Shown here piece after piece: positions 15,360-59,800 of a stretch of DNA of 64,000 nt. Source of the stretch: Tubulanus polymorphus (Eukaryota > Nemertea > Palaeonemertea > Tubulaniformes > Tubulanidae); the NCBI RefSeq assembly GCF_964204645.1, contig NC_134025.1, forward strand, positions 8,685,001 through 8,749,000, written 5' to 3'. The notes beneath the pieces were generated by a model that made no database searches, was not told the origin of the DNA, and saw only the letters and a program-made list of their open reading frames with translations. The translations under genes were made by a program, and so were the position numbers. The first letter of the stretch is position 1. Each line of letters opens with the position of its first letter.

Positions 15360-15780
15360 GTAATGTTTGTTTTCAAACTACTAAGGAATCATAATTGCAA
15401 ATTCATCACTGACCATCACTGACCACCAATGACCAATTCAAACTTCTCGAATATGAAAACGATATACCGCGTTATGGTGTCAAACTAGAAAGGATTCGCC
15501 ATTGAAAATTAATAAATTGACCATCACTGACCACCACTGACCAATTGAAACTTCTTGAAAGAACGATATACCGGTACCGCATTTGATGTGAAACTAGAAA
15601 GGAGTCGCCATTGAAAATTCATAAATTGACCATCACTGACCACCACTGACCAATTGAAACTTCTTGAAAGAACGATATACCGGTACCGCATTTGGTGTGA
15701 AACTAGAAAGGATTCGCAATTAAAATTCATAAATTGACCATCACTGACCACCACTGCCCAAGTGAAACTTCTCAAATATC
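15360..15780. repeat. 108-bp tandem repeat, four units
   Basis: The word 'ccatcactgaccaccactg' recurs at 15413, 15521, 15630 and 15738, giving a period of 108-109 bp. Units share 'ttcataaattga', 'gaacgatataccg' and 'aaactagaaaggattcgcca'. Because 108 is a multiple of three the minus strand stays open across units, but the resulting repetitive peptide is not supported as a gene. Related tggtcagt words occur at 15280-15320 and in another cluster at 21680-21930. Confidence 0.8.
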
Positions 15781-29800: not shown

Positions 29801-31144
29801 TAACTATGGTATGGTTTACGGCAGCTTTCTCATATTATGGAATGGTTTTGACAAGTTCTGAGATCGAAAAATTTCAGTCTCACTGTGCTGTGCCACCACC
29901 AGGTAAATTTCAATTTTCTAACAGAAGGAAACCTGCCATGTGGGAATAACCTAAGGTTGAACAAATTGTACTACCAGTATTTTGATGTTGTGTAATTCCA
30001 TTCAATCTGGATCAGCTTTTTTATTCAGCTTATAATAGTGAGTGATATATGGAAATTTTCTGTTTTCGATACAGATAAATTTCATTAGTAGCAGATGGTA
30101 ACAGTTTAAGCGTTAACATTTTGCCTATATATTATTTGTTTATGATCTCTAATAGATTTTTTTTCAAATTGTTTATTTCAGCTGTAAGCCAAGGTAACCA
30201 TACAATACAAAAATATCAGTGTTCTTTGAACTGCCATGAGTTAGCTGATGATGATTATATTACTATGATCATATCGGCTTTGGGAGAGTTTATATGTAAG
30301 CATATTCTTGTTGAACTCTAATTGATTTGAAACAAAACCTTTCCTGTACAATTAATTTGACCTTGTTTTCTAAATCTATCTTTTCAGCTATACCTATAAA
30401 TTTTGTACTACTTGACTATATTGGAAGGAAATACACTTTAGCAGTGAACTGTTCACTGGCTGGTATTGGCTTCATGTCTTTACAAATATGTTCGTCACGG
30501 GCGGTATTATCTGGCATTTCTATGGTTATTCGCTCATTTTGTACTGGTACATTCCTCGCTACATACATCTATACATCCGAGGTATATCACGGATTTAGAT
30601 CTATAAGAATGAATCCATTTTTCAAAAAAAGACATTCATAAAATATTAAAATACCAATATCTATCTTTAAGGTCTATCCCACAACAGTGCGTTCTTTAGG
30701 ACTTGGGATAAATAGTTCTTTTGCACGAATTGGTGCGATGGTAACCCCTTTTGTAGCTCAGGTAGGTATGGAAATTATCATGGAAGTATCATCTGCAAAG
30801 AGATTATGACAATATTAATGTAAATCTAACCCAACAATTTTCTCTAGGTGTTGCTAAATTCATCTCCACATATCACTGCGTTCTTGTATGGTGGCGTGTG
30901 TATATTAACTGCTGTCATAGCCTGCCTTCTTCCAATAGAAACAAAAGGCCGAGAGATGCCAGTAAGTACTTGGTATCTTTAAAATATACAGCTTTAAACA
31001 ACTTCTTTTGTAAATTTAACTATGAAGTACAAATAGCTGAGTATATGGTGCATTGTACTGATAGTTTTGATGTATGATAGTCTTTTTGTTCTCTTTCAGC
31101 AAACTGTTAGTATGTATGAAATACCTATGCCCGATGGAAGATGA
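26879..31144 (+). CDS. SVOP: SVOP-like synaptic vesicle 2-related transporter (MFS)
   Basis: Fourteen coding exons: 26879-26963, 27664-27791, 27900-27998, 28248-28319, 28418-28542, 28973-29036, 29246-29374, 29505-29633, 29740-29902, 30182-30295, 30388-30581, 30672-30761, 30848-30961, 31100-31144. All join in phase with GT/AG sites, giving 516 residues. The start ATG follows an in-frame charged N-terminus. Family marks: ADACEM in the first membrane segment (residues 73-78), matching the MADAMEM of SVOP; loop motif [10 protein letters not shown] (118-127); PESVRYL (237-243) after segment six; LDYIGRK (378-384) in the second half; PIETKGR (493-499) after segment twelve. These are hallmarks of the sugar-porter-like branch of the major facilitator superfamily that holds SV2 and SVOP. 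Vertebrate SVOP sits in synaptic vesicle membranes, and its substrate is unknown; a role here is inferred by homology. SVOP versus SVOPL orthology is not resolved. Confidence 0.85.
29069..29152. mobile_element. MITE remnant in an SVOP intron (GGGGCCAGC...TTTGAG family)
   Basis: The segment has 'gttaagttaacaagtggataactg' at one side and 'caacctttgagcagctggcccc' at the other, the same arrangement as the element at 55254-55384. It lies wholly within the intron between 29036 and 29246. Confidence 0.45.
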
Positions 31145-35805: not shown

Positions 35806-38800
35806 CTGGAAGAAAAAATGATTTTTAACAATCCAATAGGTCAGAAAATTAAACCATTTCTCAGTCATAAATTCTTACCATTTCTTTCTTTCGACGAATT
35901 TCTTCCAAACGTTTCTGTTTTAGTTTCTCTTCCTCTTGAAGAACAATGCGTTTATTTTCTTCTTGTTCCATTCGCTGTTTCTCTCGAATTTCCTAAAAAA
36001 TTTTGGAAGTGTGAGAATGAAATAAGTGTATTGCACATTCCTTTAAAAAACTTTCAGATTGCAACATACATTTTGGTTGAAACGATTAGAAATTAAATTT
36101 ACTTTTAATCAAATTTTCTAAATCAAAACAAATTCAAGCAAAATCTTATTTAGTTCCTAAATCAAGCAAAAACAGTTAACAAGCGCATTTTCATTGAAGC
36201 AAATATCTTTGTAGTACAGGCGAAGTTTGTCTCATCAGGGGACTAGCATTTCTGATTATCAACATCAAAAATGAATGAGAAAAGATTCAAATATATATTG
36301 GTTAGAATATGTCACATTTGCTAGGTTCATGGACATCATTATATATCATCAGTCATACATAAGGAAAAAGATGCTGAATTATTGTTAATAAGTGCAATAG
36401 AAGTAAAGACTGGATAAGGTTAGTAATTTCGAATAAAGCTTGTAGTTAATAGGAAGGCCTAACATATAGCTTTGGCACCCTGTACTACTGACACAGGCTT
36501 GACAAGAAACACTACAAGCACAAAGCAGCAAATCAAAACAATAAAAGTGCTAAGTTATTATGAAGTAAAAAGGACACAACACATAAACTGATTCAAAGCG
36601 AGGTACAGTATTAGTAATCAGTGTTAGAAGTATCTACATGATCAGTCAGAATGCTTAATATTACTCATGAATGATTTATTGGTACAAGATGCAAATTAAT
36701 GATTGCTTAGCTTCAATTACATCTAATAGATTTCTTACACGAATCTGCACCAAAAGTAAATCAAATTATTCTCATTAAAAGCATAATTTCAAGTTAGCAC
36801 ATTTGGATTGTTAGGTGTTTGTATGTATGAGGTATTGCAGATTTTTGTTGGATTACTCAATACAAACTGCCAATAGTGTTAATAATGAATCATCTAATTT
36901 GATTCTGTTTCTGTTTGAAGAACAATCATTCTGCTGATTCGTGTGTTTATACTAACGCTAACCTCATGGAACGACATGCGAGGTGCATCAAGTTGTCCCC
37001 CTACCCTCTGTTTACGAAGCAATGCTTCGTGTTCTCGCTCTTGACGCTCATGTTTTCGCTGGAGACGCTGACGTTGCTCTTCGCGTTCCTGGTCGTACAT
37101 TTGCAACATACGTTCGTGCCTGAAAACAACACCAAAATTAGATTTCAAGTTGGCTTTAAATAAATTTTAAAAATAATAAAATAAAGATCAATTCTTGTAT
37201 GCCAATTGGAATATTAAAGTTTTACCTTTCTTGCGATTCCTTCTCAATTTCGATATCTCGGATCTTCTCTTTTTCTTCCTGTTGTTTTCGCATTATCTGT
37301 GACTTTTCCAGTTCCTCGATAATCATTCCCGTGAACTTCTGCCGAGTCTGCACAACAAAATGCACATGAAAAATCAGAGATTCATATAAACTACAACTAA
37401 CAAATTCAATTGAAGGATATCTTACCTTAGCTTTATCAAGAATATCATGATCATTATCGTCTTCATCATCATCTTTCTCCTCAGCTTCTTTGACTCGTCG
37501 TTGAAATTCTTGTTCAATTCGTAAATGCTGCAAACGTGACAATTCCTCATTTGTCAAATGTCCTTTTGCTTGTAGCTCAGCAATTTCACGTTCTCTGATT
37601 AACCATGAGTCTCTCTCCCGTTGTTTGGCTTCTCGTTCCTTCTCCTCTTTCTCCCATGGTGATGGCGAAGCAGGAGCCTCTGGTAAAACAATCCGCAGTT
37701 TCGCTTGTGATTCGTGGGTATTGATTGTTTTAAATCTATCAGCTGAATTATTTGAGCTATATGGTGGATAAGTTGGGCTCAATTTGTCAAAGTTAGATTG
37801 TGGAGCCATTGATGGTGGTTGGTACCGCTGATTTTCAGGCAAACGCTTTCCATACGGATCATCGATATCATGCTCGTATTGGTACGCAGTTGGAGGAGGT
37901 GGTGGGGGTGGTAGATCAGGAACTTCTTGATTGATGTGCTCATTGTTATCAGGGGGAGGTGGTGGTAAGTGATCAGAGGGAGGCGGTGGGAGATCTGGTG
38001 CCTCATTCGTTTTTTCAGGAAATGTCTTAAATATTACACGAGGCTCGTAATTATATGCCGATGGTGACCTCGGTATCTGATTATCTTGATTATACAATGA
38101 AGATCTGTTCTCACTTGGAGGGCGTTTGCTACCAGAAGACAATCTATATTCTGGCTCTCGTCGTTGTTCTACATTTCCATTCATTCTCAATTGTGGCTGA
38201 CCATAACTAAACGGCTGCTTATCACCTTCATAGAAGTGAGGTTGGGTTCGTGTGTGGTCAATACTTAACTTCGGTATCTCATGTTGAGTAATCTTAGGCA
38301 TATCTGGCTTTTGTGCAACTTTTGGTTTTGGAGGTGTAGTCAGTGCTCTTTCCTTATTCTTTAGTTGGAAGAAAGGCGGTGTCATTTCTCTGGATAAAGG
38401 TTGCGTATTCTGATAGAACGAAGGTTGTGTGAATTCATTTTTTTTGCGAGGTACATCGAATTCATCTTCGATTCGACGCATTGAGTCCTGACGAGCAGTT
38501 TGCCCTTGGGGTTCATGACGATAACCAGTGGCCGGGTCAGGTTGGTTCTCTTGCGACGGAGGTGGTGGATAATAATTTGGACTGCGTTGGTCATAGGTCG
38601 GACTTTGAGGTATTTCAGGTCTGTTATTATAGCTTTGACCAGCTGGCTCTTGGCGTAACGCATTCTGTGATTGATTCATATAATTGGGATTAATCTGCTG
38701 TTGCTGGTAATAACTATCAGGTCGACCTCCTTGATTGGCAAAGTCAGATCTGATGCTCTGATTAGACACATCGTGTGGTGGCTGGTCATTGTACTTTTGG

Positions 38801-41800
38801 TGCCATTCTTGCATTTTTGGATTCTCTAGTTCATCTGATTTTGGACGATATTGGTTCACATCAGTACTATTGTCTTGGTAGCGGGAACGTGGTCTATCAT
38901 GTTCTGAATTGACTGGTGGTCTGCTGTTGCCATACGGGTCATTATTACGCATATTTACGTCACATCCATAGTATGGTGCGTTTTTATCAATGCCGGCATT
39001 TGCAAGGTTTGGATTCGATTTCGAAAATTGGTTATCTGGTCTTCTTGTGTATTCATTCTGTAGTTGTTGTTGTTGTTGATGTTGGTGGTATTCACGAGGT
39101 AATGTACTAGACGACTGATTTCGTTTACGAGATTCCTCATGTTCGACATCGCTATCGAGATTTGATGTAGATTTTGATCGATTTGAAGCATCTCTAGATG
39201 ACTGTGATCCATAGGCTGGCCTAATAATAGGTTGCGGTGGTCGAATATAAGGATCTCGTGGTTCATCATCTGCAAGAGAAGAAAATGACTTTAATATATA
39301 TCCAATGACTCAAGTACCTATTATGCTTAACTGCATTCTTTACTTTATACACTTTCATTATCTAATCACTGATACTGAATTAAATACTAACGCATAAATT
39401 ACCAAATTAAATAACTGAATGAAAAAATTTAATTACTATGAAGAGAATCATGCTACACATTTGGAAACACATGTACAAGAAATAACATAATATACAGTAA
39501 AATTTATATACCCGTCTTTTATATGAACAAAACCTCATGTTTTAGAGATTTTCTTCATAGCCACTGCTACTTATGTTCACTGATAGATCTGGTGAACTCC
39601 GGCTTTTTTCGTCCAACTTTTCAGCCATTGAAATACGCTTTTTCACCGATCCAGACGCACAATGCTGACCTACACTGAACCGACTTTCACATTTTTTGGC
39701 CACAGTGTCTTTCGGTTCCTCGAGGTCGCTGATTAGATCTTTTAATGACCGAGCTTTACGAACACTACTGCTACCACCGAATAATTCCTTACGCGCTTCA
39801 CTGAGTTTTTCAGAAGAACCCTTATACCCACCGCTACTACTTAGCCGTTGTAGCCGACTACGCGAACTGTCATTATTACTACTAGCACCACCAAAATTAA
39901 GTTTTAAATCTTTCATAGATTTTGACTTAGTTTTTAACAGAGCCATATTACTAATACTTGGAACACCTGTAATGTCTTTCTTAGAAGGTAAAACGTCACT
40001 GGACAGGTCAATGTCCATTAAAACACGATGTCGCCATGAATTACCACTTTCCGACGCTCGGCGATTAGCATCGTTTTTATTATTGTTAGTAGTTTTCGAT
40101 AATATTCTCGCGGATGTTTCTGAGTATTTTCGAACGGGTAATCGTGAATATTCATTTTGAACGATCGGTTCATTTGTAACACGAGCGACGGGGCGAGCTT
40201 TATTTACAATCACAGCATCAACGCTATCTGATGAACTTATTTCCCTTTTAGTGTCTTTATCTCGAGAACGCCTCCGCCGGCGTTTTGAAGCTGTTTCAGT
40301 TGGTGTTATTGATACCGGAATTGACGATATACTGTGCCGCACTATAACAGGACGTTGAACATTGCTAAGATTTATTGTTGCACTAGACCGAAAAACACTA
40401 TCGGATAAATCATCAAATGCACTTGAAATTTCAACTTTTGGTTCATCATTTTTTGGTATTGGATCAAAGTCAGTGTCAATCAAATCAAATGCTTTTTCAG
40501 CTGTTGATTTTTCAAAATCGACAGCTCCTAACTCAGCAAAGAGTTTCACCTCCTCAGGCTCTGGTGTTGGTTCCCGTTTTAACACAGGAGCAGGCTCAAT
40601 ATCCAGTTTTTTTGATGACAAGTTCTTCATTGATTGTGAATGGAATCTAGAAAGTGAATTTAGTTCAGCACCGACTACAGGCTTTATTTGTTTCTGTTGA
40701 TCAGCAACCGGAATCAGAGTAGCTTCAATCTGCTTTAATTTTGATTCTGATAGCAACGGTTCAGTTTTCATCGCTTGAACTTCAAATTTTTGACTTAAAC
40801 TTTTCAATGTTCTTGATCTAATATTACTCATGGCTTGTCTGTCAAGTTTATCATCTTCGATCTTCCGTTTATCTTCTTCACTTTTTGGCACTCGACTTTC
40901 AAGTATTTTTGTTAAGTCTTTTAATGAACCAGATTTAATTCTACTCAATGTAGCTTCAGCTTGTTTATTTTTTTTTGCTTCAACTTTTTGATATCGCTGT
41001 TCCATCATCTGTGTCAAATCTTTAAACGATTTTTCCTTTGGTTTTGCCTTAGCTTCATCAGCTCCTGTTTTCACCATCCACTTTTCAACTACCCTAGTTA
41101 TGTCAGAAATATCACCCGATTTCACAAGAACCTCCTCATCTTCATCAGACCCAACTTGTTTCAGTTCATCAGCTTTTGGAATATCATTCAGATCAACATT
41201 TTCCATGTTTTTCCATGATCTTGATAAATGACGTGTAAAATAACTGGTTTTTCTTCGAGGATAAGCAGATTTTAGCTCGGATGGTTGAGATTCAGTTGAC
41301 TTAGATATATCTTTACTCTCAGTAGCAAATTGTTCACTTTCACTTTTTGGCATTCCTTTATCCGAGGCCTCTTGCAAGACACCAGTTATTTTGGTTTCAG
41401 TGACAAGGTTATCTATATCAAGTGTCTGCTGAGACATTTTCATGGCCTTTTCTTCTGTAGTTGGAGAAGCTACTTTAACAGCATCATTTGTTGTATCAAG
41501 AACACTTAATTGCTCAGAGGAATCTTTTGCATTTGATTCTTTAGAGCAGGATATAGAGGAATTTACTTCAACATGAGTAGTTTCATCTATTGGAACACTT
41601 GAAGACACATCATGCTTTATTTCACATTCAATTTGAGGTTCTTCCGATACAGTAATAACAGACTTGTCTTCGAAGTCTGTATTGCGATGAACCAAGGACG
41701 TCATATCATTAGAACTTAAAGATTTTGAATTTTCTACAGAATGTACCATATCACTTGTTTCAGGGCCATTATCCTTTTTAGAACCACGAAAGCTGAAAAA

Positions 41801-44800
41801 CGATGGCTTGCTTTCTTGATTCGATTTGGTGTTTGAAGATTCTTTTTCATCTTGAGGTTGAGCATCTTTGATGTTAAAAAATCCTTTCACACTTTTAATT
41901 ACTTTAGACATAGCACCATCTTCATTGCTTTGAGCATTAGGTTGGGTGGAATCATTGGTGATTGATTGACTAACAATGCAATCAGGTACATTTGATTCAT
42001 CAACTTGTTCCCTTAGTTCAATTGAAGATATTTCATCAATCGTGCTCTCAACTTTTGATCCATCAACTTGTTCACTTAGTTCAATTGAAGATATTTCATC
42101 AATCCTGCTCTCTACTTTTGATCCATGAACTTGTTCTCTTAGGTCAATTGAAGATATTACAACAATCTTGCTTTCTACTTGTGATCCATCAACTTGTTCT
42201 CTTAGGTCAATTGAAGATGTTTTATTTATCTTGCTTTCCACTTCGTCATCTTTTTGTTCAACTTCTCCTCTTAGGTCAATGGAAGATGTTTCATTTATCT
42301 TGCTTTCCACTTTGTCATCCTTTTGTTCAGAAACATTTGTGATTATACCAGTATCCTCCGAAAATTTAGTTTCAACAGGCGTTGCAGGCAGTTTTCTGCC
42401 ACTGGACCTTCGTCTGATCCTTGATTTATCCTCACTCTGCTCCAAATGTTCAGGTTTTTTGTAACTATTTTCATCTTGACTACTCAAATTTCCTTGAGGT
42501 AGTGTATTACGCTTTATTTCATTATCATTCGATATTTCTAGATTTTCATCTTCATTGGCAGAATTTCTATGTGGGCGTCTTCTGCGAATAGGCTCACTAC
42601 TTTTCTCAGCCACAGGTGGTGTATTATAATCAGAATGTTTTAAATCTTCTTCTCTACCAGTAGATTTTCTTTGAGGGCGACGTCTTTGAGGCTTTCCCAC
42701 ATTGTCATTCGATATTGTTTCCATTGGAACAGAACCTTCCAAATTGACATTTTTTACCATATTCAATACCCCAATTTCAGACTCCTGTTGTGAGGATGAA
42801 TCAACAAGGGTGTCATTTACAAATGACGGTGCACTTGGCTGAATCTTTTCATCGCTTTTACTTGCTCGTGTACGCCATCTTCGTGGCAGTGTACCGGCTT
42901 TCAATGTATCATTCATTGGATCCACTTTTTTGCCAAGCCCTTCATTTTTTGCGAATGAAATACGTCCTTGCGGCAATGTACTGTCTCTAGTTTGAACTGC
43001 TTCCTGTTTAGACGATAGAATACGTGTTCGTTGTAGATTTTCCTTAGACTTATATTCATCCATTGATACCAAGTTTTCTGAATCGGAACGAAATCTTGAT
43101 TTGGCAGGAATTGATTTTTTTGGCGGCGAATCAACATCAGCTTTTTGCTCAAGTGACTTCAAACGATCCTTTAAAGATAATCCAACAGAAAAACTAGATT
43201 TGCCTGATGCAATAGATTGAGCACTTTTTGCACTCTCTTCTTCGAAATGATGAACTGAATGTCGGAGAGACCTTCTTTTTGATACATGATCCTGTGATTT
43301 GGGCTGCTGGTCACTTTCAGCTTTATCAGTTGTATAAAGCGATCTCAAACGCATTTTTAGAGATGGTATATCAGTCTGTATTTTTTGTTCTTTGGCTTTG
43401 ACATCTGTTACAGCACTTTTAGCAGCTTCATCTTCAAAAAGATGGATTGATTTACGTAAAGAACCTCTGGACACTACATCAGTTTTTTCAGGTGAAGTCT
43501 TTTTCACTCTCAGAGTTACAATTTCTTTTTCACTGTCAGCAGCATCTAAAGATTCAAACTTTTTGGCAAAATTTTTAAGTGAGCCGGGAGGTTTACGTCT
43601 TTTGTCTTTCTTTTCTGGCGGAGGTAATTTCCTATTTTCAAAGGCTTTTGCTTTGTCTTGAAACGACTTTGATGCACTAATCAAATCAATAGGCTCATCA
43701 TCATTTGCAATTATGTTATAAATAGCTTCAGAGTATTCAGGTGAATGATTTATTGTACTCAATCTTGCAGACGATTTCTCTATTTGAGTTTCAGGACAAC
43801 CAGAACTGATCTTGCTTGGAATCAAATTATCACTTTCACTTTTGGCAGCTGGAACATTGATGGGTTTTTCAACTTCAGATTTTCGCCTCACTCTTTTTAC
43901 ATCATCAATATCATTGTCCATTTGTTCCTGAAATTTATCAGCAAGACCTTGCAGTCCTTTTAATTTTGGCTGAGATTGCTTGTCATCAGTAGCTATATCA
44001 TGTCTTCTTGGAGGAGCCACAAAAACCTCCCCATCAGAGGTATCAGGAGCTGATTTCATCTTACCAAGAGATATCTTCCTTACAGGAACAGAAACTTTGG
44101 CTTGTTCCTCCAATCCATTTTCCTTGTGAGCTGTTTCAACATTTGTTTCACCAACTTTTGTAGTGATATCTACATTCAGTTCAATATGTTCATGAGATTT
44201 AGGAGATTCCTCAGTGACTCTTTCTTTATCTTTTCTTATAGGTGACTCTATAATTCCTCCAAGAATCTCTTTACTTAAACATTCTAGTGGCTGACTTACC
44301 AATTTGCTATCAGTAATTTCAGGTTCAGTTTTTTTCACTTGTGCAAAGTCTGAAATGAAATTTTCAGGTTTCATTTGCACTTCCTGTTCGTCGATAACAT
44401 ATGAAGAGTTCTTTTCAGAAGTTGCATCTTCACTGTTGTCAGTTTCCACCTTATCTTCTATGAATTTGCCATCATCATAACCAGAATACATATCAAAACC
44501 ATCTTGTTTTTGGATGCCAAAATTCCTTCGGTCGAGACTTGTAGTTTTCCAAGAATTGTCACCAACTGAACTCGTAAATGCATGTCTCTGTGAGTTCATT
44601 TGTCTACGGTCTAAGCTCCCATAGCTTGAAAGTGATTTTACTTTATCACGAGGTGAATAACTACCAACTGTAGCTCGTTTGTCATTTTCTTCGAATTTCT
44701 GAGTTATGTTTTTCAAAGAGCCAGATGGAACTACTTCCAAATTGCTAAGTCTAGAGGAGCTTAAAGATGAACTTTCCCGGGATTTTACTTTATGATCTCT

Positions 44801-47800
44801 CTCTTCACATGCTTGTTTGATATTTCTCAAAGATGTGCTAGCAGATCTTTCAGCACTACTAAGTCTTGGAGAACTTGATTCATAGTCACCAGCTCTCTTA
44901 TCTCGTTCTTCATATAATTTAGTTATATCCTTTAGAGACCGAGATTTCATCTTATTCAGACTCCTATTATCTGCATTGTTAGAACCATGACTTCTACCTG
45001 GCTTTTGCCTGAGCACAACTTCTCCTTCAGCCGCTTTCTTATCATTGGCTTCAAACGAATTTGTTAAGTCTTTCAATGATTTAGATTTCCACAAACTACC
45101 GATTTCGGAATGGGTACTGATTGATTTCTTTGGTTTGATATCTGCAGGCACCTTGTCCCTATCAACTAATGTCTTCGGGTGTTTGCTGGCTTTTTCAACC
45201 TCTTCAAAACTCTGAGTCAAGTCTTTTAATGAGCGAGATTTGCTCATACCAAGTGATGATAGAATACTGGCCATTTTTTTAGGCTTTGTTTTATCTGCTT
45301 CAGCTTCAGTAGTTGAATGAGGAGCTGTGTTTTCAAAAACATCTCTTAGTGATTTAGTTCGTCTCATTGCTCCAAGTTCTTTTTCTACATAATTCCTTTC
45401 AGCAGAAATAGAATGTCTGCCTTCTGAACCTTTCAAAGATTTGACAGGTGTCATTGGACTTGTCAGTCTATGGGCCTTTTCATTGATATCAATAGGAACT
45501 GTGCTGAGTGAAAGTGGTCGAGAATTAGATGCTGAAGGTATATCTGACGACACATTTCCTGTGCTTTTCAATCTACGATCTCGAAGAACTGGTTTTGTTG
45601 CTACTGGAGGTGGACATTTTTCTGAACTGGTGGTGTTTTGCTTCAAAATGGGTTTCACTGGCATGGTTGGCTCATTCACGCGACTTTCAGCTTTTTGAAT
45701 CATATCAGATATAGATTTGCCTCTGGTTCTCAAGGCTCTTATGTCTCTTACTCCTTCACTCACTTTGCGAACACGCTCAACAGCCAGGGCAGGGTCTGCT
45801 TTGCCTTTGTCCCAAGACTCTAGATTAGTGATGAAGGAGCCGCGACGGTACTTTAACCCTAATTTGTCAACTCGGTACTCCATGTTATCATCGATATCAT
45901 CATCACGATCACCATCATCAGGTTGACTTCCAGAAAAGGCATCGTCGATTAACTGTTCTTCAGACACAACTGAAGCACTATCTGAGCCATAGACATCACT
46001 TCTGTCCGAACTTTGACCACTTAATTTTCTATTTGTACTGAAACCGCTGTCAGAATGATTTTCATTACGATCTGTTTCTTTTTCAGTAACAATACTGTAT
46101 TCCTGTCGTGGGCTTCTTGGATTGAATGAACTATATTTTTTTGAATTATCAGCTGGGCCCTTGTCAGTGATTTCATATTTTGTATTCTCAATATCCCCAA
46201 CATGAACTGGCACATTCGTGACCTTCAAAGGCATCATTTTAGGTGGTGAAGAAAGTTGCCGATCGATTTCATCTTTTAATCTTTGTTCTTCCTCAGTCAA
46301 CTCTTCATCACTGAAGATATCGCTTAAGTTATTTGCAGCAAGGTGATCACTGTTGCCTTTTACCTCTTGATTTGGCCTCTGATGTTCTTCATTGAGAATG
46401 TCAATTTGTATAATATTTTCTTTAACTAAAGCATCATTGTTGGATTCTTGATTGCTATCAGGTGATGGCATTTCCTTGTCGGAACTCCTATTTCTGTCGG
46501 TTATGGTGGAGATTTCCTTATCTTCATCCGTCAATTGAGCCTCATCTAAGTAGATTACCTCCTCCGATTCAGAATTTGGTTCATGGCAGCATGGTAATAA
46601 TGTGGAATTTTCAATGGGATCAGCTGTTCCATCAAACGAAGGCACTAGTTCATTGATGGAATATTCTTTCATCATTCTAGTTTCAGCAGTAATGACAGGT
46701 ATTCTTTGTAAGTCAATATCACAGTCAGTTTTGTCAAAGCATTTGACTTCAGCAGTAGAGTGAGTGTCTTTCTCAGACAATTCACTCATATCACAGACTG
46801 GTAAGCAAGGAACAGACTGCCCCAAAACATCAATTTTACTTTCATCATAAACAGCTTCATAATCTAAGTCTTTCCCTTTCACAAGATCATTTCTAAGGTC
46901 ATATTCATTCTTTGGCTCACTAGATTCATTGGCAGTACAATGAATCAAGTCACCATTTACAGCAGCTTCCTGATTGATACCTGCAGAGTGATCATTTGAA
47001 ACCAATGTCATCTCAGAGGAAAAATATTCTATATCATTCTTAGACTTTGCCTTTTTAATTTCCTTTTGTTCATCATCTTCCAAGATTTCACCAAAATGCA
47101 TAGATTTATCCTCTGATTCATTTGTCAAACTGCTATCATCTTTCATTTCAGATAGATTGGATCCTTTTCCAAGATCGAATAAATCTGATAACCTCTGCTT
47201 AAGTACACTATCCTCAGAACTTGTCTTTGAATGCACTTTGTCTGTGTTGTCTGTATCCGCTTTTTCAAGATTGAGCAGATCCGACAATTTTCTTTTCAAA
47301 GGGAATTTTTGTGGGGTTGTATTTAGCTTTTCATCTTGGTCACTTTTTTCACAAAACAAAGGCGTCTTATCTGATATAGTAACATTATTCAGCTCATTTT
47401 GTTGGCAGGTAACTGCTTCTAATGTTTTACATTCATTCTGATTTGAATTAGGCATAGCATTCTCTGATGACTTTTTGCGGTTATCACGGAATTCAAAAAA
47501 CTTTGAAATTTTTACTGATATAGATTCATCTTCAATCATAGTTTCTGTATCACTGGCTTTTGATTTATTTTGTTTTGCCAGATCACCTGAATGGTCAGGA
47601 AGATTAATATCCCCGGAATCTTCAATTCTTTTACCTAATATAGCATTATTTTCTGGCAAACTATTGCTCTCCTTTGCAAAATTTGATGTTTTATCATCAA
47701 TATTATCATTTATCAATTGAGAATTATCATTTTTGCCATCAGTGCCAAAACTGAAGAAGTCTTTTATCTTATTTACGAAACTATCCTCTCTTTCTGGGTC

Positions 47801-50800
47801 CGACATTTTTATATCAATATTCGTTTTAATTGTTTTTTGCTCGCCCCGCTCGCTATCACCGTCGGTATTCGACACCGAACTTTGAAATTCACTCATATTT
47901 GATAACGCGAATATATGTAATCCTTTATCGGTTTGATTGAGTGTTGGAGTGCGCAAATCCTTGGCCTCAGTAGCTATTAAGTCCCTCCTCAGGCTCTGTA
48001 TAAAGAGATAAAGAAACAAAAGGGATGACACATCTACTCACTATCTACACAGTGAGTCGCTGAAATAAAAAAGGATGTGCAAATAATGGATCGCAGATCA
48101 ATCACCCTTACCCCAGTAACAACCACAAAAATATTGTATATTATTAACCAAATTACTATGATTCTTAGTGAAGTTTGTTTTAAGGGGAGAACATATCATA
48201 TCCATTGTTTGCACAACCACTCGCGTTAGTACCTGGGTTAGTGTACATGGACACAAACAAATGTGCCACAGGTAACTTACTTAATGATGGAGTAGATTTA
48301 GTCTGATCTTGACCTTTGAGCAGACGACCTTGGAATTCTCTTGGTTCAGGTGCTTTGTTATTGTAGCGTCTCTTCAAAGTTACTGAACTTTCACCATCTA
48401 TGTCTACCTGGTACCTAGCTGCATCTTCACTACGGGGCCTGGATGGCTTTTCGATCTGCGATGTTGGCCTTCTCGGTGATGCTGCAAGGGAATAAGAAAC
48501 TAACAAAATGAAGACTTTCAGAATTTCAAGGCTGGTTTCAAGAGATTTTTTGCAACGGGAGTCAGTAGTTCTTATGTGTCTACGCTTCACTAATATTTTC
48601 GTGATTGTTATAACTGAAGCCCCTGAGTCAAGAATTACTTGCACAGTGACAGAACTATTAATAATGACCCAAATACCCGTGAAACCAATCCCTTTTACAA
48701 AAGACATGGATCAACATTCATGCATAACTGCCATTAGCGTAAGGGAATTCATTACAACTGTTGACTAACACCTCTACTTTAAATCAGATATTACAATACA
48801 AAACAAGACAATTACCTCTTTGTATTTCAGGGGATGGTTGATTCAGTAAGGTGGCAAGTCCATGGTAAACTGCAGCTTTACGGGCAACTTTCAGTGTTAC
48901 TCTGTCACCTGTTTTTACCATCAACTCAGCAGCCCTAAAACAGCAATATAGATGGTTATCATTAATCTCAAATACCAGATAAATAGCATAGATTAGACAT
49001 AGAAATAAATATATAATCTGTGTGGGAATAGTTTTTAAGAACTCACTTTTCTTGAGAGACACCAATTAAACTCTTGCCATCTACTTCTAAAAGTTGATCC
49101 CCTGCTTGTAAACGGCCATCCTGAATAACAGAAGTTATATCAGTTCACTCTCTAGAAATCTAACCATCAAGATGGCGTTTTATGACATGAGAATGCATGC
49201 TTACCAATGCTGCTGCCCCATCTGGCACGACAGACTTGATATAAATACCACGTTTATCCTGATTTTCGCCCTAGAGAAAAAATAAAGCTATTACAAAGCT
49301 GACATTGATATTACAGATAAATATAGTGCATCAACGGTAAGGATGCATGGTGGGCTACACAGAGGCATGCTTTCAAACACTTCATATCATTCAAATACGA
49401 AAACATGAAATGAATTTATGTGGCAATTATCTTTAGACAAAGAGCAATACAATAAATTGAATTTTCAAAACATATCCATAAATGACGATGAAATTTTTCA
49501 TCTAAGAATGAGGCCCAGCAATTGACGCTTGCCATTTTATTGTACAGCGATTATACTGTGTATGAAGACAAGACATTCAATGTGTAAATAAAGACCTGTC
49601 TACATAGAAATTCTTTAGACATTCGACAATAGGGCAAAAATTATGGGGACACTTTTTATTTCCCAATATAAAAGTCTATCTTCCACTTCAATGAATTCAA
49701 AATATTTTTGGAGATCAGATTTTCTCGCCTAGTCGAAAAACATTGATATATGTAATATAAGGGCCAACATTCCTTAGATGTTTAAGTCTTTTTTTCATAC
49801 CAAACATCGACAACCCATTCTAAAGAAATATAGATTACATAAGGAATGTTTAAATATTGATTCGAGGAATGTTTGAATTTCGATTCGAAGAGTATAAAGA
49901 AATTATTCCAAGCTATTAAAACAACATTGCTACCTTTTTGAGTCTTTTAATGTATAGCCTATTTATACATGTTAAGTCAGATTTAAGAATGATTATGATA
50001 AATCTAGACGACCGAGTAATACAATGAATTACACAAAATCTTAGTATACAATAAAACCAACTTCGAACAAACATGGTATGTCTTATAAAATCAACCATTA
50101 AATTCTCCATGACAAACTTATTTCATGAAAACATGCCTAAGAGATATTAAGTGCAAGCCACCATGCAAGGAAGGTTCAATCACAATTAATTTACAGCCTA
50201 AGAACGAACAATTAAAAACATTGTTCAATAATGGATGGTCACGGGCTGAGACAATATTATTCAATACAGTATGACAAGTATGTAATTCCATGGGTGAAAC
50301 TTTCTGAATGCAATTAATTGATTAAAATACAGTTACAACTGGGTTTAATAAACGCATTTGAACCTGAAATCCCTTGAAGTGTTTATATCAGATATAAAAA
50401 CTGTTCCAAATATTCTGGTAGCACGTTTGTAAATCAAAGCTTTCAGAAAGTTTATCCCACTCAACCACAACACACCACCATTCACGCAATAAAAAGCAAA
50501 TGTTGAAATCCGATTGAATATGATGATAATTTCTAAGAGTGGAATTGCTCTTAAATTCCTGTGGTATGTTAACGAAAATCGAATAATTATGTTAACCAAT
50601 CGTAGAACTATTCAAAGAAAAAAAGTGTGGCCACAAAAATAATTGAATCTCAACTGGTATGCTTTTTATCATAAAAACAAGAAAATAATAAACAGTTGAA
50701 AAAGGTTAGCATTTGTTAATAATACGCAGTCTCGCAATACACATTCATACACATGTAATATAACGATAAAGTATAAAACATCTAGAAAATTAACTCAATG

Positions 50801-53800
50801 AATACCCAACTAAAAATCCTACATTGGCATAAAAGAGAGCTTCGCCTCAGTGACCGCATTGAAAATATATCAAAATAATAAAACATATACCGGGTACACA
50901 CCCTAGTCAATAATCAGGTATGACACAAAATAAACTGAATTGAATTTGGGTCATCAAATAACGTGATTTGAAATAATTTCTCTTCTTTTATTCAGAAACT
51001 TATCCAGAAGACAAGGCATATATGAATCTGATACAAACTTACCAGTCTTATCACGATAATACTGAATCATATTGGCCAGTTTGTCATCAGATCTGAAGGA
51101 TTCCGCTCGACCTAGACTTACGCGTAAAACTTTTCTCATACTCAGATAGAAAGCCTGCTGTCTGCTACATTAGCAATACTTTTATAATGAACTCATAATG
51201 AACTCCTAATAAACTGGGTTTTGAAAATATTGTATTGGGATTTTCTTACACTATTTCAAAAATATCATTGTTTCAAATTTGACGAATGGATCGTGAAGAT
51301 AAGATAATGAGGACAAAGAGGAAAAATGATGACAGAAGATAAATCAAATGGTGATATTCTATTTTCATATAAAATTCTATATCTGAAATGTTCTTCCAAT
51401 TGTACGCAAGTTAGAATTAAGGTATACTGATCACTTGCTTAGGTAAATACTCTCTTTAACGAACATAGGGTGTACGAATATATGTGAATCGGCGCCAAAA
51501 CAAAACAGGAGGGGTCAATTACATTCTTTATGTCAGACTGAAAATGAAGCATGTCCAGTAATGCGTAAAATTCCCTTGAAGTCACCACAGTTTAGCAATT
51601 TGGAATTAGCACGACATGGCCATATACAATGAACAAATTGGAACCAATTCAATTAGAGACAGTTCATTCAATTCAATCAACCAAATATTTCTCTTATATC
51701 CTGAGTAAAACATATAATCAACAATTTACAGCTTTTATAATGGACTTGGCCGAAATAAAATGGTTTGCCAGAGTTTAATGAATGCATACAAACTAAAATC
51801 TTTGCACGACCAATAGCAATGGTATTTTGATTTAAAGAATAATTTGCCAAATCAAGTATGAAGTCTGAAACACAGCAATTTTAGTTACTAATGCTGATAT
51901 ATGTTAATTTTAATCAATCATAATAGATCTACATTCATATCTTTTCATTTCTATTTTGAGATTTGTTTCGTAAGTTATATATTCAATTTCTATTCAATTA
52001 AACAATAAGGGCATCTTGAAAACTAAATGAAAAGCCAAAATGTAACTATTCAGCAAATCGACTATAAAATCAAATCATTGAAAACTACAAACTTATTTCA
52101 GTTTTAATGATTTACGAATTATGCAATTTAGATGATTAGTGATAATATAATATCCCTCGCTTTACCTCGTTAAGTATCAATCCGTACTATCCGAGTATCT
52201 GTCGTACATATGTCTATAGTCCAAAACACATTTACAGCACTCACAATGTCATGGGTAAGGAAGAAAACTTTTTGCTATGACCTATTCATTATGGCACTGT
52301 CACTGCGATGTATTGCTAGTACTGAGTGGGACGGTCTGCGCTTTATTTCGGTTAAGGCTCGCACCAAGCAGGTTTTTCAGTCACGGACGAATGTATGTGT
52401 ATAATTCAGCGTTAATACCCCTGCATAGAAATCCATTGAGCTTCCATGGGAGAAAATACATAAACCCGCGATTTCCGTAGACAAAAGCGTTTTCGTTCAT
52501 AAACGCGCATACCGGTGCAAGAATAGGTGAAAATATGCAAAGCATGCACAATTTAATGTCTCACCAATAGAATTTATGGTGGTATCTCATTTTGGCTCTA
52601 AAACGGTCTGAATTCTTGCCACTGTGCGACGTATGTGACAATATTCTAAAGCCTATTGCCGAGAAATGTTACAAATAGTTAACAAATATACCGAGCCATT
52701 CTATATTTTGTTGATATTCTAATGGGGATAATAAATTATATACACAAAATGTACATATTAGGACATTATACTAAAAGGATTGGAATTGAGAAGAAATGAA
52801 GCTCTTTAGAGACAATATTTAATCTAATACTTAGTATTTTTAAATGAAATATTATGGTTGAGGTTTACTTTAAAAATTCCAAGAGAAAATGAAATAAATT
52901 CTTCATATTTTTAGGGGGATTTCGACAACATCAAACACAAGCGCTAATATCACACATCACAAGTGTAAACCAGTAGCGTGGCAGACTACAGGAGGTCTGA
53001 TCCCTGCATTGAAATAATTTCTGATTCCTCTTTAGTATCCTGATTGAAATATAGTGACACTAATATAAATCATGAGCAAGCACTTTCAAACCATACAACA
53101 TTTTTCTTGACACTAAGTTAAACGACACTATGACCAGAAAAAAAAACATAGGCTACAACAGAAGACACCCATGACATAAATATTCCTTCCACCATTAGGG
53201 AATGCGTTCTTCTTTTATTACGGTATTATTTGAATTAAAGTCTGAAGAGTCACATTAGTGCATTAATGCAAAAGTGCTTTATATCGCTTTCTCTTTTAAG
53301 AATATAATTCAATTTAGAATATTTCTAGAATAAGCAAGCCATTCTAATCTATAGAATTGCTTGAAAAAAGACCTTCATTAAGTATGGCAGTGTCATGCTG
53401 ACAATAGACAGCTTAATCAATATGCGCATTGTATGATTTTTCAAATACCTAAAATGATACTTCTTTTTAGTCATCAAAATTTTATATTATCTGAACAACG
53501 AGCTATTTCATGATTACTAGGGAGGTATGAATTTGTCACTAATACATAACAAACAAAGCCATATTCCTCTTTCCGCGCCGAATGGACAAATACAAGCAAT
53601 CACACGCATACACACATACATACATAAACTAGATAGGTTAGCAAGGATTATAATACCATAAACACGTATAATATAACAATTTGTCATGAAAGTTATTGCA
53701 AACGTTCTTTATATATAACCAATGTCTCATTCAAAGCTGGCATTCAACATATATGCAGATTTGTATCATTGATCAGAAAAAAACTTACCGTTGCAGCAAC

Positions 53801-56800
53801 GATGCTCAGACCCATGCTGCCCTTTACTTTGTTGAAGACAATCGTACAAACTTCGGGCTCGTTAGGGACATCATTGATGGACCCTCCAGCACCAGGTTGC
53901 CTCGGGGGTGGAACCTGAAATACATAAAACATTGTACTCACTTTGGAACTACCCTGATACTCATTCTATCATAGGTTTATCTGAGAATAAAAAGCCACTA
54001 GTAATGAAATAATTCAATACATTGAAGCAAATCAACTTAGAATTGTCCCAAAAAATGATATGAGAAATTCAATACCTTAGCTAAGAATTTGGGAAAGACT
54101 TTGTAATTAGCCTTGTGCTTCCTTCTATGAGCATGAAAAAACAGATCTCGACTAAAGAAAATCTGCATCTCAAATAAAACTCCTAGCACAATATCACATA
54201 ATCCTCAACTTCCATACATGATCCAGCAATAATTACTGAATTTAAACGCATATGGTACAGTTCGAAACACAGCGTCATGAAGATGTAATCACACTGCTGA
54301 GCATAGAGAAACTAATGCACAATGTGAAGAACATAAAAACATCGTAGTCATGGAAAAGCCAATGATCGGTTGAGCAAAACAAATAGCTAAGCGGATATGT
54401 AGCATGATAATGAAAATCAATGAAACCTGTCACAGCATCAACTACAGCGCTAGAGATATACCAATCAACTTAATGAGATCAAAATATGCTATCAATTTGA
54501 AATATTAACGACCACATGTAGTGATGGGTACATTATACAAATGGTAGGTAGGCGCGAGATAGATATAAATGGAATATTAATTAAAAGCTTTGATGAATGA
54601 TGATGAAAGATGCTATACAACTACAGATCCTCATTTCTTTGGACTAAGACATAAACTATACTGACTTTATATCATATGTCATATGTAGAGGAATAATTTA
54701 GACTTAATAGACATCATCATTATTCATGAAATTATGAAAGCAATGCTGCAATTAATTTTTCTCATACCTCATTTGGCGGGCCCATGTACACCTTCCACAT
54801 ACCAGGAGAATTATGATTGATGATCAAGCGACAAATTCCTACGAAAATTAATGTACATTTGATTACTTCAATTAGGAGTGAATTCCTACAAAATTCATAA
54901 ATTAATCAGGGTTTTACTAGTATTCAATTTCCCACTATTCACTTTTCAGTTTCATTTTATTCGATCATTAGGTACAATTAATAAAATGCATGAGAGGAAT
55001 ATTTACCGGTTTTACATAAAGGTTCAACGTATTCTGGTAAGCCATTTGGCACGTCACGAACTATATCACACGAATAACCATCTTCGGGAAGTAAAAATGG
55101 CAAGTGTAGATTGGGATCCTCTTCAAGGTGTATATCGCGACCTTCACTACGTATCAGTTCATCATTTGATGTTTCAGCAATGTTCACCATTCTATAAGAA
55201 ATAATATCACAAAATAAAACTACTGAAATTTGAATTAGCTTTCACAAGTTCAGAGGCCATATACTCAAAAGTTGGTTTGAGTTAACCAGTGGATAGTTGA
55301 CATTGGGAAAATCAAAAGTCCATTGTAACTGTGGTATTTATCGGCCAGTTATCTTAAACTAACTTTCGAGCGACTGGCCCCAGTCCTACACTGATGAAGA
55401 GGCAGAAATGAAAACAAATTAATAAATGTTTTTTCTAACGCAGACTTACTTAAGGATGAGATCATGCGGAATACTTTGTTCATCTCTCATGGGTATATAG
55501 TTCTGTAGAAGTACACGCATCTGCAAGGAATTCAATTTGAACCACGACGCGCTACGATTGATCAGATCATTCGGATTGCTTTTCGGCATTTCCAGTAAAT
55601 CAGACGCTTGCAGAATACGGGCCAGGTGACAGTCAGCGGCCAATTCGAGGCCTTGTTTCTCTGCCCAAACTTCGACACGACCGAGTCGTCGATGCAGCCG
55701 ATGGCCCCACAGTCGAGAACACAACTGCAAACGCGGTTCGAGTACGAGTTGGTTAAAAAGCCACATATTGATGAAATGGAAAAGTTGTGAAAACAATTGG
55801 ATGGTCAAAGCTGCGTTAACGCGACATCTTCTCAGTAATGACATCGCAGCTGACATTGTGGATAAAACATCACCTGCAAAAAGAAAAAATGCAATGTCAA
55901 TTCCACAAAAGTTTATCGATGTTGCAGGGAATTCATATCTCCTTTATATTCTCTGAGTAATAATTTTCCTTCACATATGATTATAGTATAAAGATGTCTC
56001 CATTTTTATAAATTTCAAACTCCCATATCAACTGATATGCAACAAAAATTTTGGAAGTACAAAAAAGCTAGAAAAAAAAAACATTCAAGCTTATTAAGAA
56101 ATTGATTAAAATAAGCAAAGAAAACCATCAGCTAGGGAACAACTTTGGAGTCCATATGACTACAATTATAGACAAGAATATATTCAGGGTGCAAAAAACA
56201 CTTTGTCAGTAATAGAATTATTACAATATATATCAGCAGTGGAAATGGGATAAATTTAGGCATGCAAGAATAATTTCAACTGAACATTGATTTACCATAG
56301 GTTTGTATTTGCATTTTTACGAAGATTTCATTATATAATTTGTACATTAAAATCTATGATTTCAAGCATGCAGTTGGTGCACGAAAGATAACAATTTTTA
56401 ACTAATCAAAGCCCTTAATGATAGCTGTCTAACTATTGATGATCCTCAGTTTCATGTGTTCATAGACAATTCATGCATATAACATTGATACATTTGTATT
56501 TAGTGCTTCATTCAGTGTGTCATATATTAGACATACATGTATTTTAGTTAGCAGCTGTAATCTACACTAAGGTATTACTAAGCTCATCTTAGAAAAATCA
56601 CTCATTTGAAGTTTTCTCTTTTTTGTACGTGGAAGTATAGATACAAACATACTGTTTAATGAGATTTCATCTAGATTAATGATCTTTAGAAAATCAACAG
56701 GAAATTCATCTTCTTAAGAAAATCTGCAGATTTGAAGTCATTTGAAAATGAATTTCTCAAATCCAGGCCTGCACCTGACTCAATAGGTAAAGGAAATCAT

Positions 56801-59800
56801 ATCCACAGAACAAATGATGATTCTAGAAATTTAAGAAATTTAGATGACGGAATCGAATTTGTTTACCCATAATTGGTCGATTTCTTTGAAACCGATCACG
56901 CATCGCTGAAGAGCGGTCTTCTGAAGAAAAAAGAACTAGCCCTTTTAACGTTTTTGTCACTTTTACTGCTTATTAAAAGAAATATACTAACCCGTCAATA
57001 AGAATCTGGGATTGAAATAATTGACATACGGGGACAAAATAATGACTGGGGAACGGCAGCAAGATTCATATGCATGTAATAATGTCAATGAAGCAAACGT
57101 AAAACAGGAAAACTAGGCTATTGGAAACAAATAATTCTATATAATTTCTCTCATCCCAATGTCCTTTTTAACTAATTCTCAATATAAAATACAATATGAA
57201 ATAACATGAATTGCAATGATATTAAGGATCATTAAGATGATCTGAGAATTTACCATTGTTCCAATCTTCATCGGTGTCGTCGTCATTGTTGTCGAGGAAT
57301 GCTGGCATCGCTTGTTGCAAATCTCGCTCTAAACATAACACCAAGTGATTGAACCCGACCTCCACTGTTTCCGCGAGCACGTTCTGTGCATCTACGCTGT
57401 AGGCATTCAGGTCGCGATCTTGTTTGAAGAAGTTCAATATCTCCGATGCATTCGCCATCCAAAAGGAGAGGCCAGCTGCGTCATCCCGATTTTCCTATAT
57501 GATAACAAAAATATTCTTAACTCTACTTAAGACAGGGTACCCCATTAATTACCACTGTTTGATTTTATGCGCAACCTAGCAATTTCATCTGTTTAAAAAA
57601 ATTTCCTGACTGACTACTGTATTCCCTGATTTTTTTAAAGAAGAGAAACTGCCCTGACTTCTCTGATTTCCAGTTTAGAAGCCACCCTGTTAGATATACC
57701 AAATTTTAAGAAACAATTGACAAATATATTCACCTCAATAGTGCACTGCACGAGGCTAGCGATTTTGTTCACGAATGCTGTCAGTCGATGTGCACGTTCA
57801 GACGGATTATGTGGGTATGGACCTGTCACACGAAATCTCGTCGCCATATACAGCGAATACGTCGGAGCTAACTTAAACATCACACTCAGCGGGTCGATAT
57901 CAGTTATCAATGAAGCCAGGAAAGCATCTTCTCCTAGGAAAAAAGATCACATCATTCAGTTACGGTCTGAGTGTTCTTTTCACGTTAGCAGCGGTGAAGG
58001 TTGATCAAATATTTACCATCATCTCTAAATTCTAGAGAAGCGGGGAGTACGTCCTCCTGGTAATCAGTGCTTGGTGGTGGAAGAGTATTGGGATCTTGCA
58101 TGGCCCTAGAAATGACACATAAACATACTGATCTAAATACTCATTATCTTAAAATACACAGAATCACTAGTGGTAGTAGTGTAAATACCTATGTTGCATC
58201 ATATCGTTGTGTGGTGGATAGGGTGCCTTAGGGTCACCTTCATAGATCGGATCTGTGGATTTCTGCAGTGGAGACGTCACTCGTTGGAGCTGCTTCTTTA
58301 AAGTAATACTCTAATTAAAAGACACACCGACGAAAAAGACGAAAGGTGTTAATTGAAAGCGAGATAAACTATTAAAAAAAAAACTGAACTGAAAAACCTG
58401 TCGTCAGTACATAAACTAAACTAGGACAAACCATGTTGCCTTTAAAATGCAGAGGTACATAAGGTGTAAGGATTGAGAATAACCAAATGGAGCAATGTGG
58501 ATGTCTGTGACTAAACCAATTCATAATAGGCTACTGGAAAAATGATTAGTGCGAGTGAATAAATCAGGTTAATTTCTAGAGAATGAAATCTTTAAAGGTA
58601 CACAAAAAATGTGCTCATCCGTTTAACAGTAAGGGATGTGAATATGATTGCTTAAGCAATTTTTTCTGTTCTAACAAAACTTGTAATAAGGTCAGAACCC
58701 ATGAAAGTTGCAATTTATAGTTGCTTACCTCACCGACTAATGGATCGACAAAGCGGAATAGATTATGCTTGCCAAAACGAATAGTGTTATTGTCTTGCAG
58801 TAAAGTAGTTTCATAAATTCGTTGGTTGTCGACATAAATTTCAGCATCTTTCACAATTGGCGTGGCAGTAACTATACCTTCGGCATGAGCGATTACACAA
58901 TGCCGAGGCATAATATGTTGCCCGTATAACTGAAGATGTTGAGCTGCTGTACCGAGAGCTTGTCCGCTACCGATTTCAGTCATGTCAAATTTCAACCGAT
59001 GTATTCGTGGATTATATGGCTCAGTGCCATCTACAATGAAATTACATATAGATAAATATATATTTTCTAACCTGATACTTAAAATTAGTGAATAGAGCAA
59101 TGACATTACATATTCATTCAAGATTTATCCCCGCTATCGATCATAATAAATTGCCTTATTGCCATTACGAGAATAATAGTAGCATAATACACTATCAGTC
59201 GTGACACATTCAACGGTATTTTTTGATAAGTCAACTTTTGTGTGATCAAATTATCTAAATTAGATCCTCTGGCTGCAATTAATGTCATTATATACCGACC
59301 ACTGCCGCATAATACAAACCTGAATTCAATTCAATCAAGAATGGCAACTTTTCAATGGGTATTCCTTGGAACGTTTGGTTCTGATCAACATCAGATAATG
59401 GTCTCCCATCTGGTTTACGTTTAGGTTGCTGGCCTTGAGGTCTCCTACGTATTTGTATCATGACTTCGCCTGAAATTCAGATCAGTAATCCTTTAATATC
59501 GAATATAAGTACACAAACACCGAACGGTATCTACCACAAATGTCTCATATTCTGTAAAACGCAGATAGCCCGGTTGCTCAAGCGAGGGATGATAAACTTA
59601 TGCCAGAGTTGATACATTATGACCAGAATGTGACTGACTGCGTTAGCTAGGTAACTGTATTGATTACATTAACCACGGACAATAAGGACATTCCATTAAA
59701 TAAACAATCGTATCAAACAAACACACAACTATTTGACACACGTCACCAATTCGTTAAATCATCCTTAGTTGCACTCATCCACTTACCGAAGTTAATTGTA

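Follow-up and report, generated by a model that had tools for sequence, protein, structure and literature searches.

A giant single-copy coding exon nested in the afadin gene of Tubulanus polymorphus

A giant open reading frame in an afadin intron

Analysis of a 64,000-nucleotide stretch of the genome of the nemertean Tubulanus polymorphus (NCBI RefSeq assembly GCF_964204645.1, contig NC_134025.1, positions 8,685,001 to 8,749,000; referred to below as the window and numbered from its first base) revealed a giant single-copy coding exon nested in the gene for afadin, which, judged by its sequence, is real. Its novelty, as far as we have seen, lies in its size and motif content, the setting being already known in kind. 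The reading that we favour, and to which we give roughly an even chance, is that the exon belongs to a gene nested on the afadin strand, which would have a separate leader exon and be read mainly as a transcript of its own.

The minus strand, on which afadin is also encoded, is free of stop codons from 48037 to 39542, i.e. for 2,831 codons, and the sole stop (39542-39544) is the terminal one. Begun at 47995 the reading comprises 2,817 residues, and begun at the first ATG (47896) it comprises 2,784. From the base composition of the window a stop would be met every 14.5 codons, and the longest open frame in any of 50 simulated 64-kb windows (first-order Markov) spanned 186 codons, the longest per window averaging 141; over the same stretch the remaining five frames contain 78 to 425 stops. 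The frame is located within the afadin intron 48280-39270 (9,011 bases), of which the 8,454 bases from 47995 make up 93.8%, and the reading phase is kept when the afadin exons on either side of it, 48281-48481 and 37426-39269, are spliced together (across the junction of 48281 with 39269 the product reads ...STPSLNDEPRDP...). A first-pass annotation, made from the letters of the window, had described a frame of about 2,800 codons at 39542-47995, with a stop of its own, wholly within one afadin intron of about 9 kb whose flanking exons join in phase, and its description proved correct in each of these respects.

37426-39269, minus strand: exon that continues the canonical afadin tail, rich in proline and glutamine, phase-compatible with 48281
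39270-39541, minus strand: stretch after the stop of the long frame, in which two 99-base blocks score as noncoding
39542-47896, minus strand: long coding frame from the first ATG to the stop, with 2,784 codons before the stop
41987-42329, minus strand: in-frame tandem repeat whose units measure 63 and 69 bases, or 21 and 23 codons
48281-48481, minus strand: 201-base afadin exon that follows the PDZ-coding one, beginning and ending in phase 1

As regards the identity of the host gene, the Pfam cut-off was passed by two of the ten proteins scanned, namely those with the FHA (58615-59124) and DIL (55446-55943) domains, and we take the piece at 48784-49065 to be the PDZ end and further pieces to be the RA parts of afadin.

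Coding character of the frame

The base G occupies the first, second and third codon positions of the frame at frequencies of 0.317, 0.151 and 0.145, and GC at 0.473, 0.386 and 0.260; the neighbouring afadin tail exon is biased likewise in direction, and the three-base periodicity is strong. A three-periodic coding model, trained on most of the frame together with the afadin tail exon, returned one unbroken coding segment (score 880) over 47983-39548. When training was confined to the first two thirds, a mean score of 8.2 was obtained for 76 blocks from the last third of the frame, compared with -14.1 for 734 control blocks, and the two 99-base blocks past the stop scored -24 and -19. Under a model trained on the long frame alone, 89% of 53 blocks of the afadin tail exon scored above 0. 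Among five internal repeat units, the ratio of nonsynonymous to synonymous differences per site (pN/pS) was 0.48 when read in the long frame, as against 3.12 and 0.53 for the two remaining frames, and for the three closest units the comparison in the long frame gave 0.102/0.119; these figures are compatible with a translated as well as with an untranslated frame. As far as sequence alone can tell, the frame is real coding sequence. That it stands open by chance, or as an untranslated relic, is extremely improbable in view of its length, which the simulated windows do not approach, and of its periodicity.

The product matched only itself (C1:8724545-8732995, E <= 10) in the 267.8-Mb genome, in a protein search that scores the best candidates only, here 7, and no Pfam family was found in the 2,817-residue reading at E <= 1. 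The neighbouring pieces 47897-48280 and 48482-48783 gave self-matches only in the same genome, with a search that skips very common words. These results bear on the possibility that a retroposed or transposon-derived coding sequence was inserted into the intron, as a single uninterrupted long frame in such a place might suggest. A weak match to aspartyl proteases in the afadin intron next to this one, before exon 48481, also points to such an origin; it is found at about 48537-48665 of the minus strand, in the open reading frame (ORF) 48180-48710, and both of its scores (Asp_protease_2, E 0.00068; gag-asp_proteas, E 0.0017) remain below the curated cut-off. However, the lack of any Pfam domain in the frame itself, and of a second copy or parent gene in the genome, makes a mobile or retroposed origin improbable. 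Because of its codon-position composition, the coding score that ends at the stop, the single genome copy and the absence of a Pfam match, we read the frame as a coding exon on the afadin strand.

A serine-rich, mostly disordered and motif-bearing product

The product is rich in serine (14.0%) and in charged residues (33.5%), the commonest residues after serine being lysine, glutamate and aspartate, and is unlike the canonical tail exon piece (13.5% Pro, 9.3% Gln, 8.6% Ser). FoldIndex classified 89% of its 51-residue windows as unfolded, in agreement with the very long disordered product proposed earlier; by the same measure all windows (100%) of the canonical tail exon were unfolded and none (0%) in the DIL and FHA pieces. 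A search for relatives in PDB yielded a lone match (E 1.7), which was taken as chance. With no Pfam family at E <= 1 and no better PDB match than this, the cytoskeletal nature suggested in the first-pass annotation for a separate embedded gene is conjectural.

39695-45256, minus strand: span of 12 copies of a recurrent motif (from residue 922 to residue 2750, numbered in the 2,817-residue reading)

The motif resembles S-L-K-D-L-T-x-x-F-E, and its loose pattern matched 12 times, compared with a mean of 0.31 and a maximum of 3 in 2,000 shuffles; the pattern was composed after the sequence had been read, which weakens this test and, with it, the scaffold function proposed below. A profile built from the 12 copies recovered 14 stretches in a search of this one sequence, i.e. 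the 12 and two weaker ones (13.5 and 2.7 bits), and its best PDB match (E 0.24) was again taken as chance. In 7 of the 12 copies (counted without a control) a basic residue at -3 of the motif serine is combined with a hydrophobic one at +4, an arrangement that presumably resembles AMPK/MARK-type kinase sites. AF2, given the 12 copies as an alignment, predicted that the motif forms a single helix, at residues 22-37 of a 48-residue model with a mean pLDDT of 68 (85 in the block 21-30), and residues 690-900, modelled with no alignment, gave a mean pLDDT of 53.5. Among the pattern stretches obtained from viral_contigs (2) and genome_contigs (8), no relative was confirmed, which carries little weight, since these collections hold viruses, bacteria and archaea only. 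A second pattern, [KR]-hydrophobic-x-x-[FL][FL]-x-[FIL], matched 4 times (residues 76-268), compared with at most 2 matches in 1,000 shuffles.

Entry into the exon and its mode of expression

47897-47995, minus strand: 99 bases from the acceptor to the first ATG, with no stop in the long frame and a coding-like score; leader or coding
47973, minus strand: splice acceptor, score -9.3, the sole one in phase with donor 48281 among six scored at 48059-47973
47996-48015, minus strand: splice acceptor TTCTTTATCTCTTTATACAG before 47995, score 6.9, phase 0 for the long frame
47996-48111, minus strand: candidate 116-base intron of an own transcript, with the putative donor GGG/GTAAGG (last exon base 48112, score 5.9)
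48408, minus strand: weak donor CAG/GTAGAC in the afadin exon, phase 0, in frame to 47995, score 1.9 (canonical 48281: 2.5)

Splice sites were scored with crude matrices. Of the two starts of the exon named in the first-pass annotation, 47995 stood the scoring, lying behind a strong acceptor, while 47973, behind a very poor one, did not. Acceptors as good as that of 47995 occur at 0.08 per kb in control DNA (2 in 24.3 kb; window positions 8700-33000, minus strand). The afadin donor 48281 is of phase 1 and 47995 of phase 0, so that their junction is out of phase and meets a stop after 9 codons; from the phase of the acceptor at 48481 it follows that the donor of the PDZ exon is also of phase 1. 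Another phase-0 donor (53789, score 6.6), in an exon that we take to be PDZ-coding, would cut the PDZ domain. For an in-frame splice from the upstream afadin exon these matrices thus offer the weak in-phase donor 48408 and the very poor acceptor 47973. A frame-restoring cassette exon between 48281 and 47995 was also considered: of six acceptors combined with donor 48112, only 48155 (44 bases) gave an open in-phase case, and it was thought unlikely, with an acceptor score of -4.4 and a hydrophobic stretch as its product.

Donors as good as 48112 are found at 0.12 per kb of the control DNA (3 in 24.3 kb), which corresponds to a chance of about 3% within 285 bases. If the afadin exon is extended to 48112, it meets a stop at 48180, and this donor could therefore serve a leader only, not a coding fusion. 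The first ATG of the exon, at 47896, and the one after it, at 47806, both lie in the long frame, the first with an A at -3; starting from codons inside the frame, the next two ATGs were both in frame in 4.7% of 2,583 cases. The out-of-phase position of the strong acceptor 47995, the poor score of 47973, the good donor 48112 and the first two ATGs in frame are the reasons for which we favour a transcript of its own.

Such a transcript, of a nested gene or from an intragenic promoter of the afadin locus, would be read from the afadin strand, and a short leader exon ending at donor 48112 would be spliced across 116 bases to 47995. Translation from the first ATG would yield a serine- and charge-rich, mostly disordered protein of 2,784 residues, and a short 3' untranslated stretch would end the transcript before the next exon of afadin. 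The protein may function as a multivalent scaffold, in which the copies of the helical motif Ser-Leu-Lys-Asp-Leu-Thr..Phe-Glu, whose serine is often preceded by a basic residue, would offer several binding or phosphorylation sites to one partner. If 47896 is the start used, the whole coding sequence, with start and stop, lies within the host intron. Behind the stop, the stretch 39270-39541 contains the poly(A)-signal variants TATAAA (39523, 39508 and 39349), ATTAAA (39433 and 39295) and AGTAAA (39344), and no AATAAA; such variant hexamers are common in AT-rich DNA and may stand here by chance. Cleavage between the stop and the next afadin exon is only suggested by them. Three donors scoring 4.1 to 4.6 are present within the frame, from which a transcript might be spliced onward instead of reaching the stop.

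Several observations weigh against an independent transcript. The splice matrices are crude, and of 19 ORFs taken as afadin exons 10 were without a donor above 4 and 6 without an acceptor above 3. A second acceptor, equal in score (6.9) to that of 47995, lies at 48059, i.e. 64 bases upstream and inside the proposed 116-base intron (joined to 48281, it leads to a stop after 8 codons). No promoter or start of the leader was seen, donor 48112 being the one mark of this putative exon, and the leader, depending on its start, would carry up to four upstream ATGs. Furthermore, the 99 bases before the first ATG have a coding score of 3.4, which 1.46% of overlapping open control blocks (6,424), 1.93% of GC-matched ones (1,970) and 2.2% of open shuffles (2,000) attain, and this coding look favours entry from an upstream coding exon. 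A coding-segment scan (threshold score 8) detected nine minus-strand segments upstream of the frame (48270-61292), eight of which read as afadin, while 57286-57444 represents another frame of a DIL-region exon; it revealed no unassignable further coding segment, but it missed the known FHA, DIL (55446-55943) and RA1 exons, so that an upstream exon of the long frame may have escaped it as well. Finally, in the fly precedent described below the exon supplies a tail to the host protein.

The main rival reading is that the exon is an alternative last exon of afadin, to which some transcripts splice from the post-PDZ exon, ending at the stop at 39542. About 2,800 serine-rich residues would then replace the Pro/Gln-rich tail together with the actin-binding end, as in the Drosophila canoe isoforms CnoRD and CnoRI, with a tail about four times longer. 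We consider this quite possible, though we would adopt it only tentatively. The exon lies on the same strand, directly behind the first post-PDZ exon, with the remaining canonical tail following it, and its own stop would end the protein; its high serine content, the coding-like 99 bases and two in-frame routes (48281 to 47973 and 48408 to 47995) are likewise consistent with a tail. Yet the first of these routes needs the very poor acceptor and the second a donor of low score (although the canonical 48281 scores hardly better), 48281 and the strong acceptor differ in phase, and the better phase-0 donor would disrupt the PDZ domain. The composition also differs from that of the fly tail in the residues that follow serine in abundance. 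A long afadin tail and a separate embedded gene had both been offered in the first-pass annotation, and expression as an own transcript and as an afadin tail could both hold at one locus.

Comparison with known systems

The first-pass annotation knew of no such exon in vertebrate afadin or fly canoe; for fly canoe the remark is wrong, a large serine-rich alternative exon after the PDZ-coding part being known there. According to PMC10399776, CnoRD and CnoRI contain an alternative tail exon after exon 15, which encodes 718 residues (14.2% Ser, then arginine and alanine) and which exists, is expressed and evolves fast. The exon described here resembles it in lying in the afadin/canoe locus after the PDZ-coding part, in being large and similarly rich in serine, and in being unlike the usual tail. 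In contrast, it is far longer, and a join of the afadin donor to its strong acceptor would break the frame, whereas the fly exon is joined to cno in frame; the likeness is one of placement and composition, not of aligned sequence. The same paper describes vertebrate s-afadin, a truncation without the C-terminal 174 residues. An afadin tail formed by the present exon would likewise be an alternative end that drops the actin-binding end, although s-afadin has no giant new tail.

A precedent for nesting is 2mit, which, in PMC3786989, is placed within tim2 on the strand opposite to its host, intronic genes being estimated there at about 6% of fly genes. As in 2mit, the whole coding sequence would be contained in a host intron; unlike 2mit, the present frame is on the host strand and fills 94% of the intron.

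An exon at a place comparable to that of the fly tail would suggest long-standing use of a second tail, or of a nested gene, at this site, and its motif-rich sequence is one for which partners at adherens junctions might be sought. If the nested gene is independent, the fly isoforms merit re-examination. A broader reading, which we judge unlikely, is that afadin/canoe genes have an ancient, fast-evolving, serine-rich second tail exon, which here would have expanded about four times to become a multivalent array of motifs, serving afadin as a tail and also, from an internal start, giving a protein of its own. One locus would then give rise to actin-binding and non-actin-binding junction scaffolds and to a free version of the tail.

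Other features of the window and genome

A satellite-like tandem array occupies 6386-8657 (120-base unit, 15.5 copies, 92% matches over 6782-8657; also periods of 241 and 360), and a second array 15394-15772 (109-base unit, 3.5 copies, 89% matches). On the plus strand, two pieces within 29511-30641, namely a coding-like segment (29511-29642) and an ORF (30315-30641), presumably resemble a membrane transporter. Six exact TTAGG units in a row were detected in the genome at C3:4313853-4313927 and C9:818422-818591, among 33 overlapping matches listed by a search that skips simple repeats.

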